From IMG/VR virus record IMGVR_UViG_3300038701_002991, positions 1 to 31,968 of that record: DNA of 31,968 nt. One strand, given 5' to 3'. Position 1 is the first letter of the stretch; every line of letters begins with the position of its first letter. Of this stretch, positions 1,789 through 25,437 are shown piece by piece. Position numbers and translations under genes: made by a program. The stretch comes from a virus. Under the pieces are notes generated by a model. That model searched no databases and was not told the origin of the DNA. It saw only the letters and a program-made list of their open reading frames with translations.

Positions 1789-2116
1789 TAGATTTATTTG
1801 CATAGGTGAAAAAAATTGGCGCGCCGCACTTTTCATATGTTCAATTTTTGTGTGCCAAAATGGGGTACTTTCCCCCCAATAGGTTTCAACCCGAATTGAC
1901 TAAAATCCCTCATTTTTCCTATAACCATGTCGTTTACAACGCTTTAACAAATCCCAGACCATTTTCCAGGCCCAAAACTAGGTTCAAAATCATATCAAAA
2001 CAATATAAAACACCATCCTTTTAGCCCAAAACAACAATTAAAAGTCTATTATCATCTCCTTATGTTCTTATTATGGTTAGTTGTATGGTACTTAATGAGG
2101 TTATGGTTGATGTTTA
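1789..2116. other. non-coding stretch at the convergent junction
   Basis: No convincing gene on either strand. A 72-codon rightward frame beginning with GTG at 1806 has Pro/Phe/Asn-rich residues and no promoter, and is judged spurious. The stretch contains TTGGCGCGCC (1816-1825), is C-rich on the top strand, and lies where rightward and leftward gene sets meet. No clear terminator is visible after the last leftward gene. Confidence 0.6.
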
Positions 2117-2518
2117 TTATCCTCTCTCGATTTCTTTTTTAATGAGCTTTATCTTTTCTATATCTAATTCAGAATCAGTGATTGCTAAAATTAAATTTTG
2201 AAGTTCGTGAATGTACTCCATCTTCTTATTGGCCCCGTTATCATTTTGATATCTGTAGTGACTAATAGTGAGTCTTATATCCCCGTGTATCCATCCCCAT
2301 GGGTATAATTCAAACCCTGCTTGTGTAAGTATCTTATTATCTATCTTTACCCCTCTGCATTGAGATATGTGGATAGATGGACTCAGTGTGTATTCTCCGT
2401 TTGCTTTAGGTTTCTCTGATAACCTTACGTTGATGAATTCTTCTCCGATCTTTCCTACTTCGAATATTGTATTTCTATATTCAATTAGGCTTCCTATTCT
2501 TAGCTCTGATGCTTTCAT
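2117..2518 (-). CDS. hypothetical protein, 133 aa
   Basis: The N-terminus (MKASELRIGSLIEYRNTIFEVGKI) suggests a small SH3-like/KOW-type barrel: 'ELRIGSLIEY' then 'FEVGKIGEEFINV'. The opening resembles that of the protein at 11084-11452 (MKKSDLRSGMIVEDR). The middle, VDNKILTQAGFELYPWGWIH-like, recurs in Bacteroidetes phage and prophage proteins, but I know no function. The C-terminus (YIHELQNLILAITDSELD) is a helix followed by a basic tail. It is the last gene of the leftward block and ends without a visible terminator. Confidence 0.65.
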   Translation of the reverse strand: MKASELRIGSLIEYRNTIFEVGKIGEEFINVRLSEKPKANGEYTLSPSIHISQCRGVKIDNKILTQAGFELYPWGWIHGDIRLTISHYRYQNDNGANKKMEYIHELQNLILAITDSELDIEKIKLIKKEIERG

Positions 2519-2548
2519 AGTTGTATTGTATGTATTTATTGTATTGGA

Positions 2549-2731
2549 TTATATCCACTGTCTTTTGCACCCTTTACACTGGTACATTATCTTGTCTAGT
2601 TCTGCATCATAGCTTTCTTCCATGGGTTGTTTACAGCATGGTGATTCTTCTCCCTTTAATAGTATATAGGCTACTGCCATTGCTGTTATCACCATTCCTA
2701 GTAATACCATGTATGCTAGTATATTATCCAT
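2549..2731 (-). CDS. small membrane protein with zinc-ribbon-like cysteines, 60 aa
   Basis: One N-terminal membrane segment (about residues 4-25, ILAYMVLLGMVITAMAVAYI) is followed by a short soluble tail carrying two cysteine pairs, SPCCKQP and QCKGCKRQW, spaced like a small zinc ribbon (about residues 32-33 and 52-55). Unknown function. Its first eight bases overlap the end of the upstream 38-aa membrane gene (2724-2840), so the two are probably coupled. Small membrane proteins next to one another could be lysis- or exclusion-related, but no holin signature is evident. Confidence 0.6.
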   Translation of the reverse strand: MDNILAYMVLLGMVITAMAVAYILLKGEESPCCKQPMEESYDAELDKIMYQCKGCKRQWI

Positions 2732-2840
2732 TTACAGTTACTTGGATCATTCCTAGTATGTACATTATGATAATCGTTGTGATTATACAAGTGCATATGC
2801 CACTGTAGACTTCATATAGTCCTTTGATTGCTTTCTTCAT
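2724..2840 (-). CDS. small single-pass membrane protein, 38 aa
   Basis: MKKAIKGLYEVYSG is followed by a hydrophobic stretch (about residues 15-33, CTCIITTIIIMYILGMI) and a short polar end. The positive N-terminus predicts an inside orientation. Its ATG overlaps the stop of the preceding gene (ATGA, 2837-2840), and its stop overlaps the start of the following one (ATGGATAA, 2724-2731), so it sits in a tightly coupled chain; this supports it being real despite its size. No family recognised. A holin-like or membrane-anchor role is possible but unproven. Confidence 0.55.
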   Translation of the reverse strand: MKKAIKGLYEVYSGICTCIITTIIIMYILGMIQVTVNG

Positions 2841-3109
2841 GATATTGTGAATGTATGTTTTAGTCTCCCTTTCTCATTTATTTCTTTCATGAGTTCCTCG
2901 TGATCTTTCAATGTTCTAAGCTTATGTCCAATTGGATACAATACTGTAACCTCCTTTGTAGTAATTAATAGTTTAGAACTCGGTGTTGATCTCCTACTGA
3001 GTATTTTTTCCTCTATCCATTCGTCAATCAATTCTTTAGGGATTGGTTTATTGGAGTAGGGTGCCTTTATAAGCATCTCCTCAAACTGTTGAACTAATCC
3101 TTTCATCAA
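2837..3109 (-). CDS. hypothetical protein, 90 aa
   Basis: Soluble 90-residue protein, helix-rich at the start (MMKGLVQQFEEMLIKAPYS) with a basic 'EEKILSRRSTPSSKLL' middle and a beta-like end. No family recognised. It has 4-nt ATGA overlaps with both neighbours (3106-3109 and 2837-2840), so it is part of one polycistronic leftward message from about 3351 to 2549. The second Met could equally be the start. Confidence 0.6.
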   Translation of the reverse strand: MMKGLVQQFEEMLIKAPYSNKPIPKELIDEWIEEKILSRRSTPSSKLLITTKEVTVLYPIGHKLRTLKDHEELMKEINEKGRLKHTFTIS

Positions 3110-3351
3110 TTCTCTAAAGTTACTCTTCCCTTAAAATCCTCAAATTCTTCGTGGAATGTGCTTGACATATACCCTACTGGCGAACCCATGTGATCTCCTG
3201 CAACAACTGCAGTCCCGGTGAAACTTCCATCTGGGTGTATTTTAGAAGCTAATATGATGGTTCCTGTGTCAGGACTTTTCATTAGCCTTGGATATTCTAA
3301 TTCCTGATTATCAGCTACTGCTGCTGTTGGTTCATCTACTTGAGTTTTCAT
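3106..3351 (-). CDS. hypothetical protein, 81 aa
   Basis: Residues 19-60 form a compact beta-rich stretch (YPRLMKSPDTGTIILASK, then GSFTGTAVVAGD), a pattern I associate with short uncharacterised phage proteins. The N-terminal 18 residues are acidic and probably disordered. Function unknown. It is the first gene of the coupled chain 3351-2549 and lies directly downstream of the tRNA-Ala gene, 16 nt away, so tRNA processing would release its message. Confidence 0.6.
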   Translation of the reverse strand: MKTQVDEPTAAVADNQELEYPRLMKSPDTGTIILASKIHPDGSFTGTAVVAGDHMGSPVGYMSSTFHEEFEDFKGRVTLEN

Positions 3352-3366
3352 ATATTTATATTTTAG

Positions 3367-3439
3367 TGGATCTGATGAGACTCGAACTCATATCCTTCTC
3401 CTTGCAAAGGAGGTGCTCAGCCAATTGAGCTACAAACCC
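3367..3439 (-). tRNA. tRNA-Ala (UGC)
   Basis: Complete cloverleaf on the minus strand: acceptor GGGTTTG / CAGATCC (two G-U pairs), D-arm with TAGCTCAATTGGCTGAGC, anticodon stem CTCCT / AGGAG with loop TTGCA giving UGC, T-arm TATGAGTTCGAGTCTCATC, discriminator A. The terminal CCA is not encoded. Confidence 0.93.
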
Positions 3440-3465
3440 TGGAACCGAACTAAACCCGCGATTTT

Positions 3466-3502
3466 GTAAAGGATGCGAGTGTTCGGCGTTCACTCTCCTT
3501 GT
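3466..3502 (-). other. hairpin upstream of tRNA-Ala
   Basis: GAGTG / CACTC closed below by AAGGA / TCCTT across a small internal loop, in a GC-richer spacer between the 56-aa gene and tRNA-Ala. It could be a processing or stability element. No ORF fits here. Confidence 0.35.
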
Positions 3503-3514
3503 AAATTTACTTTA

Positions 3515-3685
3515 TTAACCTATCTTTGAGACTCCTGCAGTCCTTTGAATTGTTCTGAAATTACTTGAGTCTAGGTTATAGCTATCTAATATAGCTCTAG
3601 CTTCTTCTTCTGAATGAGCTAGGATCTCTACTCTCATCCTGTTGTTTGCCCTATTCTCAAATAGGTATGTGCTTAGTGGTGGCAT
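3515..3685 (-). CDS. hypothetical small protein, 56 aa
   Basis: The peptide starts MPPLSTYLFENRANNRMR and continues with a helix containing AHSEEEARAILDSYNLDSS, the shape of a small alpha/beta protein that acts on or modifies a target. The 'SEEEARAIL' pattern is common in tiny phage proteins of unknown function. Its ATG lies 1 nt after the stop of the 53-aa gene before it, so both are read from the same message. Coding is supported by codon quality and tight spacing. Confidence 0.55.
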   Translation of the reverse strand: MPPLSTYLFENRANNRMRVEILAHSEEEARAILDSYNLDSSNFRTIQRTAGVSKIG

Positions 3686-5107: not shown

Positions 5108-5596
5108 TTATTTTACTATCTTAATTTCTCTTCCTAGCTCTTTACAAACTTGCTCTAGAGTCATTTCTTGCACGTCTGGAATCTCCTTCATAAAACGCCA
5201 CTCGTCTGTTGAGTATTCTTTACCATTATTAAAATCAGTTTGATCATCGAACTCTACACATACATACTTATATCGTGCCTGGCCAGGTAGTATTGCTACT
5301 AAAGTTCTCTCTACGAAGTGTTTTTCTTTATCATCTGACACCAAGACTCTTCTTGGTAGTTGATCAAGTTCATACAATTCTTCCAGAGTGACTATTTTCA
5401 TATGAGTAGACTCTACAAATGCCAGATTAAAGTTACAGAAACATCCATCCTTTAGCCCGTAATAAATAAAGATGTGTCCTGTATCTTCACTTGCACTGCC
5501 CTTGTATCCTCTTACGTCTACACCTTTTGATTTAAAATATTCTACTATCTTAGCTCCCTCTTCTAAGGTTCTTGCCTTTACTACTATGTTATCCAT
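5108..5596 (-). CDS. hypothetical protein, 162 aa
   Basis: Residues 1-50 (MDNIVVKARTLEEGAKIVEYFKSKGVDVRGY) look like an alpha/beta domain of the kind found in small phage proteins. The middle has a beta segment with KYVCVEFDDQTDF and DEWRFMKEI. The C-terminus MTLEQVCKELGREIKIVK matches a short module seen in many phage proteins, also present at the end of the 11084-11452 protein. Function unknown. It is the first gene after host-type promoter M5 (25 nt), so it is likely expressed from host polymerase, and is followed within 10 nt by tRNA-Asp. Confidence 0.7.
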   Translation of the reverse strand: MDNIVVKARTLEEGAKIVEYFKSKGVDVRGYKGSASEDTGHIFIYYGLKDGCFCNFNLAFVESTHMKIVTLEELYELDQLPRRVLVSDDKEKHFVERTLVAILPGQARYKYVCVEFDDQTDFNNGKEYSTDEWRFMKEIPDVQEMTLEQVCKELGREIKIVK

Positions 5597-5620
5597 AAAT
5601 ACTATTTTTAAATTATGGTA

Positions 5621-5651
5621 TAAAGATACAATAATTTTTTAATCTACCAAA
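5621..5651 (-). promoter_or_regulatory. host-type promoter M5
   Basis: Leftward TTTG (5648-5651), 19 nt, TATCTTTA (5621-5628) followed by TACCATAA as in M10. Gene start 5596 is 25 nt downstream. Confidence 0.8.
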
Positions 5652-5658
5652 CCTTTTA

Positions 5659-6042
5659 TCAAAAAAGTTTAAAATATTTTGTAACCCGTAGGAGGATCGA
5701 ACTCCTATTTGCAGGATGAAAACCTGCTGTCCTATCTGCCCCTTCGAATACGTGATCAGGGTTAAGATTCGCCCCGCTACCTCCCGAGGCCGACTTAAAA
5801 TTTGTCTGCTTCCTTACGAATGATATTAAACTTGCAAGTGTATATGGTGTTGTACCTGCTTCATCGTGCCATAATGCGGCATTAGCCTTTGCAATCTCAA
5901 AGGATTTGCCTGATTCTCTATCTTCCAATCTGATAGCATCTGCGCTTTCATCGTAGATAGTCGATGCCTTTTGGAAAAGCATCGACTATCTACCTGATGG
6001 CTCTACAATTATGTAGTTATCAGATAAATATATTTTATTCAT
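5659..6042 (-). CDS. phage protein interrupted by an in-frame TAG, about 126 codons plus TAG
   Basis: From the ATG at 6042, 12 nt after the terminase stop, 18 codons (MNKIYLSDNYIIVEPSGR) lead to TAG at 5986-5988. The same frame continues without a break: SMLFQKASTIYDESADAI, then WHDEAGTTPYTLASLISF, and NFKSASGGSGANL. The two parts read as one small protein of a type I associate with Bacteroidetes phages, so the TAG is unexpected. An internal ATG at 5982 could give a 107-aa product. The TAG lies in a perfect 15-bp inverted repeat (5953-5993). At the other end the frame runs into a tRNA-Glu-like sequence, so the natural C-terminus may also have been lost. Candidates: readthrough, a mutated gene, or an assembly error. 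TAG is a normal stop elsewhere in the window. Confidence 0.55.
5682..5752 (-). tRNA. tRNA-Glu (UUC)-like sequence, 5' half degenerate
   Basis: On the minus strand the anticodon arm GCAGG-TTTTCAT-CCTGC (UUC) and T-arm AGGAG-TTCGATC-CTCCT are perfect and are followed by ACGGGTT and discriminator A. The expected 5' acceptor strand AACCCGT is absent at the normal place; ATCACGT pairs at only 5 of 7 positions, and no good D-stem forms. An AACCC lies too far away. It overlaps the 3' end of the ORF 5659-6042. It could be a tRNA fossil, a fragment left by recombination, or an unusual tRNA. Confidence 0.5.
5953..5993. repeat. 15-bp perfect inverted repeat inside a coding frame
   Basis: GTAGATAGTCGATGC (5953-5967) and GCATCGACTATCTAC (5979-5993) are exact reverse complements. 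The loop adds CTTTT / AAAAG pairing with one bulged base, giving a hairpin of about 19 bp. It holds the in-frame TAG at 5986-5988 and an ATG at 5980-5982. Confidence 0.9.
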
Positions 6043-6054
6043 TATATGTTTTCG

Positions 6055-7323
6055 TTATAAGAATCCCTTTCTTCTACGAGCCCTCCTCTTCTGAGGTTTG
6101 CCCGGGTTCTTGATGGGTGTTCTACTGTTAATTCCGTATCTTAAAGCTGCTAAGATATCTGGTTCGTGAGGAAGTTTTCCTTTCTTATCCCTCTTAAATG
6201 TCATATAGTGATAATACAAATCTGATGTATCATCTCCAATCATCACTATACTCTTGTCTTGAACCTTTTTAATACCAGCTTCTACATTGCCTTTATAGGC
6301 CTTTCTAATCGATGTATAACCTCCCTGTCTGATTTCTGTAATTAGTAAAGGCATCGCGCTATCAGCATATATCTTAGCGTTAAACGGAATACCGGCCCTT
6401 CTCATCTTTGTCAGAGTTGATCTGATTGATAGTTTGGCTTCCGAAAACATTTCCTCGACATAATATACATCTTCAAACCATGTTACTTTAATACAAGCAG
6501 TCTTGTCATTACCTCCATATCCAAAGTCAAGACCATACCAAGTATCGCCAGGTTGTTCGAATATAGGATACTGACCCCATCCTGCATAGATTCTACCAGA
6601 GACCTCAAGTGTCCACTCAGCTAGAATTGTATTTCTATAATAAGTAGGATTGGTCTCTTTTAATGAGTCGTATCTTCTTACTACAGATGGATTTAGGTTA
6701 TCTATATTATCTAAATAGGTACTATGTATATATATTGTGTCTGTAAATCTTTCTTGTTTAGGTAAGCCTTCAGTGAACCATTCTTTATGGATCCAGCTTT
6801 TTACAGCTGAAGTTGGATTGTAGATTAGGACAATCTTTAATGGCTTACCTGCAATCCTGATTGATTCATCTACCTTTGAAAACTCCTCAAAGCTCTCAAC
6901 CTCTTCAGCTTCCTCAATCACCAAAGTAGTTATACCTGATAATGATTTTAGTTTTGCTGTTTGTGTCCCGGCAGATCTAATCCCTTTGAAGACAATCGAA
7001 CCGCCTGTTCTGATATTTGTTATAGTACCCTTTGATTCTCTAAAATCAGCCTGTGCTCCGATTAAAATTATCGCAGCTCTTATGTCAGCAATAGATGAAT
7101 CCTCTAAAGATGTCATCGTCTGCCTTAGATATAATATCTTGTGCTTATATTTAGAGTAAGTCAATTGAACCATAGCAATTGCTGCTGCAAATGATTTACC
7201 AGAACCACGACCTCCATATACCTGATAGTACCTAGGATCGTCTAAATTATCTTCAAATAGTGGTGAAAAGGCAGGATTTAGTTCTATCTCTCTCGATGAG
7301 TTATTCTCCATCCTTTTTACCAA
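6055..7323 (-). CDS. terL: terminase large subunit
   Basis: Packaging motor that translocates DNA into the capsid and cuts it. At 422 aa it has the usual length and both expected domains: Walker A GGRGSGKS (residues 38-44ish, K43), Walker B TTLVIEEAEE (E137/E138 catalytic), and a C-terminal RNase H-like nuclease with GLDFGYGGND (D266) and ADSAMPLL (D321). The arrangement resembles PBSX/SPP1-type terminases (Terminase_3). The start at 7323 overlaps TerS by 23 nt; a second Met, five residues in (7311), gives an 11-nt overlap and is equally possible. The very basic C-terminus (KPQKRRARRRKG) is probably a DNA-binding tail. It follows TerS and lies downstream of the portal, the reverse of the common TerS-TerL-portal order. 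Confidence 0.95.
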   Translation of the reverse strand: MVKRMENNSSREIELNPAFSPLFEDNLDDPRYYQVYGGRGSGKSFAAAIAMVQLTYSKYKHKILYLRQTMTSLEDSSIADIRAAIILIGAQADFRESKGTITNIRTGGSIVFKGIRSAGTQTAKLKSLSGITTLVIEEAEEVESFEEFSKVDESIRIAGKPLKIVLIYNPTSAVKSWIHKEWFTEGLPKQERFTDTIYIHSTYLDNIDNLNPSVVRRYDSLKETNPTYYRNTILAEWTLEVSGRIYAGWGQYPIFEQPGDTWYGLDFGYGGNDKTACIKVTWFEDVYYVEEMFSEAKLSIRSTLTKMRRAGIPFNAKIYADSAMPLLITEIRQGGYTSIRKAYKGNVEAGIKKVQDKSIVMIGDDTSDLYYHYMTFKRDKKGKLPHEPDILAALRYGINSRTPIKNPGKPQKRRARRRKGFL

Positions 7324-8552: not shown

Positions 8553-9909
8553 CCTTTACCTCCTCTTCTTCTTTAACTAACCATACATCAACCTGATCAT
8601 CTGTCATATCGAATCCATCTTTTAGTAATTGTTTAGCTTGCTCAAAGGATATTTCTTCCTTAACAAACTTTCTCACAATCCTCTGGAGTTGTTGCATCTG
8701 CTTACCGGTTAAATTCTTGAATGAAGATTCAGGCTTGGCACCTTCCGCTTTTCCTTCTAACTCTGGGGTTACTTCTTCTTCGTCAGTATCTAGTTTAAGT
8801 TTATTGATTACAATCTCCTTAGTTTCAAAGATAGAATTAGACAATACTCTGTTGATTTCTGACTGTATGGTGTCTCTGCCGTGTTGTGTTACAGCATTGA
8901 ATACAAAATAGGCATCCTCTAAATTAGTGCCACTGAAACCATTTTTCTGATCAGCCCCACCTAATACTGGTGGGATTAGATATGCACCAAAGATCACTTT
9001 TTGTGATAATTCAAATGTAACAACTGCAGCATCCACAATCGCCTTAGATCCCTGTCCACCTCCACCTAATTCTTCTAAAATGGTTGCGTTCACATCCTCT
9101 GGAGCTAATCCTGAAAATGTAATGACCTTTCCAGATCCTCTTGCTCCCTGTGCATCATCAATAGCATTTTCTAAAGCAATCAAAGATGGATCTTCTGAAT
9201 CCATAGAAGTCTTCAGTAAATAGGTATTGATAAACCCTGTAGCTGTTTCTTTCCTAATCAATATACTGTTCTCAATATCTGATAGTACATAATTAATGGG
9301 TGCCTGTAGTGGTGGAATCGGATAAGAACTATGTCCTGCATCAGAATGATATAACACCTGTCCTAAATAATTTGAGATTCCTCCTTTGGTATTTCTAATT
9401 TGCTTAATCACAGCTTTAGGATTAAAGCGGTCAAACCATTTGATTTTTGTTTTTGTGGCAGTTTGATCAACTGTCTTCTTGATCTCACTAGTCCTACCAA
9501 AGTTATAGTAATATCCAACTTGACTAGCCATATTTAATTCATCAAATTCATTGAATCTTAAATCAGCTATCCTCATGGGCATTATACTGGTGACCTGTCC
9601 TCTAAGGTTATAGTTACAATGAATAGCAAATGCTCTATATGTTGCGTAGTCATCTGCTAAGATATCTACTACCTTTTTAAGTGTTAATCCATATGGACTC
9701 ACTATTTCATCCTCACCTACGAATCCTGAGCCCTTGTAAAATGCTGCTGTTCTCTCTACAGCTGGCTTAGCAATGGGTGATTGTGCAATAAGATTTCTTA
9801 AAGTACCTGGGAAAGCATTTGACTTGCCCCATCTCATGATACCTAGACTAACATCTTGTTTAGTCTCTACTTGAGTTACCTCAATGTGATTTTGTATATT
9901 AAAACTCAT
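8545..9909 (-). CDS. portal protein
   Basis: At 454 aa it has the length of a phage portal. Features: an N-terminal wing region (WGKSNAFPGTLRNLIAQSP), PAVERTAAFYKGSGF, helical stem DDYATYRAFAIHCNYN, Pro-rich PIPPLQAPINYVLSDIENS, the long clip helix region with a Gly-rich loop (EELGGGGQGSKAIVDAA), GAYLIPPVLGGADQKNGFSG, and an acidic C-terminal tail (residues ~370-454). The LGGAD..NGFSG stretch is characteristic of portal-type proteins in Bacteroidetes phages. The portal forms the dodecameric channel used by TerL. Its ATG lies in the 3' arm of a perfect 12-bp hairpin (9907-9942), suggesting translational control. The upstream gene ends 47 nt before. Confidence 0.85.
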   Translation of the reverse strand: MSFNIQNHIEVTQVETKQDVSLGIMRWGKSNAFPGTLRNLIAQSPIAKPAVERTAAFYKGSGFVGEDEIVSPYGLTLKKVVDILADDYATYRAFAIHCNYNLRGQVTSIMPMRIADLRFNEFDELNMASQVGYYYNFGRTSEIKKTVDQTATKTKIKWFDRFNPKAVIKQIRNTKGGISNYLGQVLYHSDAGHSSYPIPPLQAPINYVLSDIENSILIRKETATGFINTYLLKTSMDSEDPSLIALENAIDDAQGARGSGKVITFSGLAPEDVNATILEELGGGGQGSKAIVDAAVVTFELSQKVIFGAYLIPPVLGGADQKNGFSGTNLEDAYFVFNAVTQHGRDTIQSEINRVLSNSIFETKEIVINKLKLDTDEEEVTPELEGKAEGAKPESSFKNLTGKQMQQLQRIVRKFVKEEISFEQAKQLLKDGFDMTDDQVDVWLVKEEEEVKDV

Positions 9910-9942
9910 ATCTGTTTAATTGTATTTAACTAAACAGATATG
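9907..9942 (-). promoter_or_regulatory. hairpin enclosing the portal start codon
   Basis: CATATCTGTTTA (9907-9918) / TAAACAGATATG (9931-9942) pair over 12 bp with a 12-nt loop. In the leftward mRNA the portal AUG (9909-9907) forms the last three pairs of the 3' arm. The fold would sequester it. Confidence 0.8.
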
Positions 9943-9956
9943 ATTTCTATTTAGTT

Positions 9957-10530: not shown

Positions 10531-11091
10531 TTACAAAAGGGCATTCTGGAAATTTTTATCCAGGATCATCCTGAGTTCAACGAACATGTCGAGATATTTA
10601 TCATTCCAAATAGATCTGGTAAAGTGAGGGTTCTCATCTTTGTATCTCTTATACATCTTAGATTGAGTCTGTTCAGAATATTTGGCATTTGCTATTCTGT
10701 CACATAGCTTAACAAAGGTAGCCAGTGGCGTTTGTCTTATATTACCATAATATCTTTCATCGGCCCTCTCTGCCCTAGTCCTACCCTTCTCATTTGTGAG
10801 TGCAAATACTATTTCGGCCACATCGAATCCAAACCTTTGTTTAATCTCATTATAATTTACCCTACAATCTTCGATAGTATCATGGAGCCAGCAGGCAGCA
10901 AGTACTACACCTTTATACTCATCTGGTATATGATATATAAACCTTTCGGCTACATGAGTTGTGAGCTGTAGATGATGAATATAAGGCATATTATCATATA
11001 GATGATTGGTACCTCCGTGTGCCGATGCGGCAAAATCTCTAGCATCTCTAACTAGCTGTGCCTGTTCTAAGGTTAAGTTTAAACTATTCAT
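10531..11091 (-). CDS. SpoT/MESH1-like HD phosphohydrolase (putative ppGpp hydrolase)
   Basis: 186 aa, a stand-alone HD domain of the RelA/SpoT hydrolase type. The metal and substrate residues are in place: H39/H40 (MPYIHHLQLT), H70-D71 with E74-D75 (LHDTIED) and D131/N135 (KLCDRIANAKY). In SpoT and MESH1 these bind Mn and cleave the 3' pyrophosphate from ppGpp. There is no synthetase domain, so only hydrolysis or a related nucleotide reaction is expected. By removing alarmone it would keep transcription and translation running during infection (inference). The gene overlaps the upstream one by 8 nt and is the last of its unit before the inverted-repeat hub. Confidence 0.82.
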   Translation of the reverse strand: MNSLNLTLEQAQLVRDARDFAASAHGGTNHLYDNMPYIHHLQLTTHVAERFIYHIPDEYKGVVLAACWLHDTIEDCRVNYNEIKQRFGFDVAEIVFALTNEKGRTRAERADERYYGNIRQTPLATFVKLCDRIANAKYSEQTQSKMYKRYKDENPHFTRSIWNDKYLDMFVELRMILDKNFQNALL

Positions 11092-11452
11092 CTGCTATGT
11101 ATTCAAATTCACGACCTAATGCCTCTTCTATCTGCTTGTGTGTCATTCCCCTTGGACGCTCCCAGATGGATTCTGAAGCATATAGGTCGAAGCTACCCGC
11201 ATGCTTGTTTGAATTAGGGCTCCAAATTTTAACTATGTCACGTGATCTATCTTTGCCACAAGGACCCACATATCTTAAATTTTCATCCCAACTTCGTAGG
11301 GGACTCCAAGTTCTCTCAGTTTCGGAAATTTTATCTTTTGCCATTCCTCCTCCAACAATGTCACCATGTCTTTCTGCGTTTAGTAGCACTATTCCTCTCT
11401 GCCCTCTACGGTCTTCTACGATCATCCCTGATCTTAAATCTGATTTTTTCAT
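11084..11452 (-). CDS. hypothetical protein, 122 aa
   Basis: Starts MKKSDLRSGMIVEDRRGQRG, like a short SH3/KOW-type barrel opening, and resembles the N-terminus of the 2117-2518 protein. The middle has RYVGPCGKDRSRDIVKIW and IWERP. It ends with MTHKQIEEALGREFEYI, the same kind of C-terminal module as in the 5108-5596 protein. Such modules recur in phage proteins of unknown role. ATGA overlap with its upstream neighbour and 8-nt overlap with the HD gene. No enzymatic motif seen. Confidence 0.65.
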   Translation of the reverse strand: MKKSDLRSGMIVEDRRGQRGIVLLNAERHGDIVGGGMAKDKISETERTWSPLRSWDENLRYVGPCGKDRSRDIVKIWSPNSNKHAGSFDLYASESIWERPRGMTHKQIEEALGREFEYIADE

Positions 11453-25056: not shown

Positions 25057-25437
25057 TTAAATTAATTCTAAAATATCTAAACTGTATCCATTCCCATTTG
25101 TGCTTATAACACGGACAAACCCATCATCATCCCTTACTGTCACTTTAGCTATTTTTATAACAGTAGCTCCCCCCTGGCTATACTTGGATCTATAAATAGC
25201 ATATGAGCCTACCAAAGCTTTAGTCAAAGTCTCCTGAAGTTGAGCATTTGGTTCTTCCTCTACTATCTCTCTAGTAACAGAATCTGGTTCAATATCACCT
25301 GACATTTGTTTAATAATGTCTTGTTTTTTCCACTCGAGTATTCCGAGCAGTTCAAAGGCATTCATCCCATCATTTTGAGAACGAACACAAAAATGTTCGT
25401 TCTCATTTATTGATACTTCTAATTTATAATTTTTCAT
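25057..25437 (-). CDS. hypothetical protein, 126 aa
   Basis: Starts MKNYKLEVSINENEHFCVRS, then a helix LLGILEWKKQDIIKQMSG; the middle EEPNAQLQETLTKALVGSYA and the end with TVRDDDGFVRVISTNGN look like a mixed alpha/beta fold. No family recognised. Codons 9-18 lie in a perfect 11-bp inverted repeat (25377-25404). It follows the cysteine-peptidase-like gene by 2 nt, in the unit from promoter M10. Confidence 0.6.
   Translation of the reverse strand: MKNYKLEVSINENEHFCVRSQNDGMNAFELLGILEWKKQDIIKQMSGDIEPDSVTREIVEEEPNAQLQETLTKALVGSYAIYRSKYSQGGATVIKIAKVTVRDDDGFVRVISTNGNGYSLDILELI
25377..25404. repeat. 11-bp perfect inverted repeat within a gene
   Basis: GAGAACGAACA (25377-25387) / TGTTCGTTCTC (25394-25404), 6-nt loop, near the 5' end of the 126-aa coding region. 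Could be an operator, an mRNA hairpin, or chance. Confidence 0.75.

Follow-up and report, generated by a model that had tools for sequence, protein, structure and literature searches.

A perfect palindrome carrying an in-frame TAG in the gene next to the terminase of a marine phage, probably left by a replication template switch

The window analysed here, which is the whole 32-kb stretch (31,968 nt) of an IMG/VR virus record, derives from a marine bacteriophage and encodes a terminase large subunit (TerL), a portal, a T7-like RNA polymerase, a primase/helicase, a ribonucleotide reductase and an RNA ligase. Its TerL is 69-71% identical to those of Cbastvirus, namely Cellulophaga phages phiST, phi13:1 and phi19:2 and Tenacibaculum phage Larrie; the likeness to this group extends to the portal (62-66% identical) and to the T7-like RNA polymerase and ribonucleotide reductase, found in both. 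On the (-) strand, 12 nt past the TerL stop, an ATG at 6042-6040 begins a broken reading frame made up of 18 sense codons, a TAG, and a continuation that stays open in the same frame down to 5659 (Table 1), in agreement with the initial annotation of this DNA. The perfect 15-bp palindrome reported there, extending to about 19 pairs, is likewise present, and the TAG lies inside it.

Table 1. Coordinates of the features at and around the interrupted gene, numbered along the window.
Feature	Position	Strand	Remarks
TerL (terminase large subunit)	6055-7323	(-)	Intact, upstream neighbour; PHROG/Pfam Terminase_3, 3e-33
18-codon N-terminal segment MNKIYLSDNYIIVEPSGR	5989-6042	(-)	Matches the start of the five homologues
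In-frame TAG	5986-5988 (coding strand 5988-5986)	(-)	Codon 19, within the coding-strand 5' arm
Remaining part of the conserved N-terminal domain, up to about codon 83 with the frame unchanged	5794-5985	(-)	Homologue HMM, 83.1 bits
Non-conserved ORF tail	5659-5793	(-)	Without a C-terminal module of the homologue kind
tRNA-Glu(TTC)-like sequence over the ORF 3' end	5681-5756	(-)	ARAGORN; Rfam 20.6 bits against a gathering score of 29
Perfect inverted repeat, 15 bp with an 11-nt loop	5953-5967 GTAGATAGTCGATGC / 5979-5993 GCATCGACTATCTAC
Coding-strand 5' arm	5979-5993	(-)	Putative derived copy; holds the TAG and the extra codon
Coding-strand 3' arm	5953-5967	(-)	Putative template; encodes the family-like residues ASTIY
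11-nt loop TTTTCCAAAAG	5968-5978	(-)	Short inner complementarity, one G unpaired

The palindrome is a near-perfect inverted repeat with a short spacer, and it is longer than expected by chance. In its extended form, the arms at 5953-5971 and 5975-5993 are 19 nt each and 95% complementary. The 15-bp stem is the longest among the perfect hairpins of the window; the maximum in 15 Markov shuffles was 12 bp, and base composition predicts only 0.0017 stems of at least 15 bp with a loop of at most 30 in the window. As RNA, the palindrome folds at -31.4 kcal/mol (z of -9.3). It does not qualify as an intrinsic terminator, given that no U run follows the stem, and none was found at 5500-6300.

Other inverted repeats of these genomes deserve separate mention. 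The portal start codon of the window (9907-9909, (-) strand) sits inside a 13-bp hairpin at 9906-9943; perfect stems of 12-15 bp, differing in sequence, lie at or just before the portal start in phiST (L009), L053, L014, L020 and L064, and long stems appear there in Larrie (L011) and L019 if G-U pairs or mismatches are allowed, while other relatives have no portal-start hairpin. Perfect stems of at least 9 bp occur at 8 of 28 distinct portal starts versus 6 of 142 ORF starts in general, where the 8 include L018, whose terminator-like stem lies further upstream, and two of the 6 are themselves portals. One compensatory pair change distinguishes the L053 and L014 portal stems. The portal hairpin may represent an RNA structure close to the start whose sequence is renewed time and again, possibly a start-codon control element. 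Within coding sequence, a perfect 12-bp hairpin at 25376-25405 ((-) strand) lies early in a 126-aa orphan gene (25057-25437), whose frame is open and for which a homologue search found none; this hairpin and one in the Larrie helicase could not be polarised, informative homologues being lacking. Larrie also has, between annotated genes (L091, 16804-16881), an inverted repeat that is perfect over 31 bp and encloses a 16-nt loop.

The broken gene has homologues in five related flavophages (L014, L064, L083, L061 and Larrie), four of them directly after TerL, whereas in L083 the gene is flanked by a TerS-like gene and TerL; sequence similar to the TerL end (GFKGFL) precedes the L083 copy, suggesting that the module has moved. 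Protein identity of the homologues is only ~27-39%. They have in common an N-terminal domain of ~80 residues, whose predicted structure comprises seven strands and one helix, the first strands at 2-6 and 10-15, and then diverge, which would fit a pattern often found in modular virion proteins. The C-terminal part of the L083 protein resembles cyanophage proteins annotated as virion structural proteins, that of Larrie matches a PHROG of unknown function, and that of L061 is similar, judged by eye, to the gene that follows TerL in L004. Family searches with the gene returned nothing from PHROGs and only a sub-threshold DUF7611 from Pfam; the predicted fold of the intact L064 homologue is confident for residues 1-80 only, and structure searches with this fold yielded no functional assignment.

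Comparison of homologous genes at the site, which the initial annotation had proposed, shows that they align across the TAG and that none stops there. An HMM built from the five homologues alone, with the window sequence left out, aligns to window residues 1-83 without a break at the TAG and needs one inserted residue only. This one-codon insertion, the only one in the match, falls in the TAG-bearing arm, and what the opposite arm encodes agrees with the family in register. The same site in the five homologues has no stop and no palindrome (perfect stems reach at most 8 bp), which lends no support to a conserved RNA element. Homologues starting at the internal ATG (5980-5982), which had been named as grounds for rejecting an interrupted gene, were not encountered, as all five start at the upstream ATG.

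Beyond the TAG, where the homologues are open and the window copy is interrupted, the gene carries further lesions of the kind expected of a pseudogene: the C-terminal module is absent, leaving the N-terminal domain alone, and the 3' end overlaps the tRNA-like sequence. The initial annotation was thus right about the break at the TAG and missed that the gene is shortened at its 3' end too. The tRNA-Glu-like sequence is itself possibly a decaying tRNA gene; it stays below the Rfam gathering score, and the four other tRNAs of the window (Ala, Asn, Asp and Phe) pass.

Other phages also have damaged copies. Within Cbastvirus, Larrie has a counterpart gene that is broken as well (L011 7288-8360, downstream of TerL), with two frameshifts, the first at a short TTTAA repeat, and a TGA; what looks like a single ancestral gene has been annotated there as a set of hypothetical proteins. 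The 6 kb after TerL in the Cellulophaga phages phi13:1, phiST and phi19:2 yielded no homologue. The L083 copy (2083-3560, before TerL) is shifted out of frame at a G run and contains another stop, although indels in metagenomes call for caution here, the TerL of L061 being shifted too. Because the window copy is shortened, the Larrie and L083 copies are broken and none was detected in the three Cellulophaga phages, the gene seems dispensable in some lineages. Against decay everywhere stands the open 297-aa copy of L064, which indicates that the gene is alive in some phages. Also on the opposing side, the frame of the conserved domain in the window copy is intact except for the TAG, and its decay would therefore be recent.

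To us the locus probably represents the inactivated remains of a virion-type gene in which a template switch during replication created a stop. Template switching had been raised at the outset as a source of both palindrome and stop, and it is the best supported of the initial proposals: the extra codon and the TAG fall in one arm, and the other arm is family-like. Sequence comparison indicates that the TAG arm is the derived one, because the opposite arm encodes family-like sequence; at the protein level, and as seen against distant homologues, the changes appear confined to one arm, which is the reverse complement of the other. In such an event, the polymerase would stall at a short imperfect inverted repeat during replication, jump to the nascent or opposite strand, copy ~10-15 nt backwards from the right arm before jumping back, and the left arm would thereby turn into the exact reverse complement of the right one; the same event would add one codon and place the TAG at codon 19. 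The stop would have persisted because the gene was dispensable at the time or later became so, with its C-terminal module gone and its 3' end overlapping the tRNA-like sequence.

A single out-and-back switch is the simplest account, since it yields at one stroke a perfect stem, changes that cluster, an additional codon and a stop. Furthermore, both flanks of the palindrome are collinear with the homologues, as fits an out-and-back jump. One G beside the loop is unpaired, which counts against the switch and would imply either inexact copying up to the loop or a later base change. The switch itself we infer, since searches with the downstream half, the read-through domain, the L014 protein and the exact palindrome found no close relative, let alone one free of the palindrome; scanning contigs with TerL turned up a single distant locus, at 35% identity. 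Its direction and the order of the lesions are likewise presumptive, and the broken gene presumably gives rise to no functional product.

On this evidence we favour pseudogenisation by template switching over regulation, readthrough or an assembly chimera. The inverted repeat could have been made in library amplification or assembly, given that strand-displacing polymerases produce inverted-repeat chimeras in amplification (PMC9484634) and that the record, a virus contig, belongs to a public metagenome collection. Such chimeras, however, typically fold back without returning, whereas the sequence here comes back in frame to the gene that it left and agrees with the homologues on both sides with only one extra codon, making an artefact unlikely. 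Equally, the stem could act in the message to control expression through attenuation, processing or mRNA stability, with a short leader peptide or an internal start in use. The very stable RNA fold, the portal start-codon hairpins of several relatives and the greater frequency of long hairpins in these genomes than in shuffles (mostly after genes) would speak for such a role, but a comparable hairpin occurs at this site in none of the five homologues and a U tract of terminator type is absent. The internal ATG, moreover, sits inside the stem, and a start there would drop the first two predicted strands of the conserved domain; with the homologues starting upstream as well, the internal start that the initial annotation had entertained found no support, and we regard a regulatory stem as improbable.

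Dispensable genes commonly acquire nonsense mutations, and ordinary point mutations together with a 3-nt insertion might have given the stop beside a merely coincidental palindrome; with ~0.002 stems of at least 15 bp expected in the window and both changes inside one arm, this is very unlikely. More improbable still would be that the gene beside TerL serves host recognition or decoration and forms a contingency locus, repeatedly switched off and perhaps on again, with the template-switch palindrome as the switch; the off-sites would then be the palindrome in the window, the G run in L083 and the short repeat in Larrie.

Production of the full protein by readthrough of the TAG, or by its decoding into an amino acid, is very unlikely. 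An open and conserved frame on either side of the codon speaks for it, but TAG ends 8 of the 45 ORFs of the window, including 440-613, 11084-11452 and the portal, as the initial annotation had noted in calling it an ordinary stop, the tRNAs found in the 32-kb fragment are Ala, Asn, Asp, Glu and Phe with no CUA suppressor among them (a suppressor could lie elsewhere), and none of the five homologues has a stop at the site. Nor does the use of TAG in the window resemble that of TAG-recoded phages, in which TAG is avoided as a stop and stands in frame in many genes.

Template-switch pseudogenisation thus places the locus in a familiar class of mutation, of which it appears to be a clear instance, rather than among novel coding devices. 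It offers a natural case from an environmental phage in which a palindrome in coding sequence is most economically explained by one switch, with the gene both lengthened and stopped, and it cautions against taking such sites for recoding or regulation. It also presents the TerL-adjacent region in these phages as a site of virion-type gene exchange and loss. Among known cases, a single template switch can create a perfect stem, as described for the stems of RNA hairpins (PMC8794818); those stems lie in RNA genes, whereas the one here lies in a protein gene and bears no sign of RNA function. In yeast coding genes, arm homogenisation, in which one arm templates the other, leads to multi-base protein changes (PMC8604942). 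The same use of one arm as template for the other would apply here, although the yeast survey excluded genes with premature stops (PMC8604942) and the stop is the main outcome in the phage. Further close parallels are quasipalindrome template-switch mutations under the Ripley model, known from thyA and lacZ reporters in E. coli and from rIIB of phage T4 (PMC7202029), in which, as here, an inverted repeat is perfected and the changes cluster in one arm inside a coding frame. Those were observed as mutations, whereas the present one is inferred from distant homologues, and its outcome differs in being a nonsense codon together with one codon gained, in an environmental phage.
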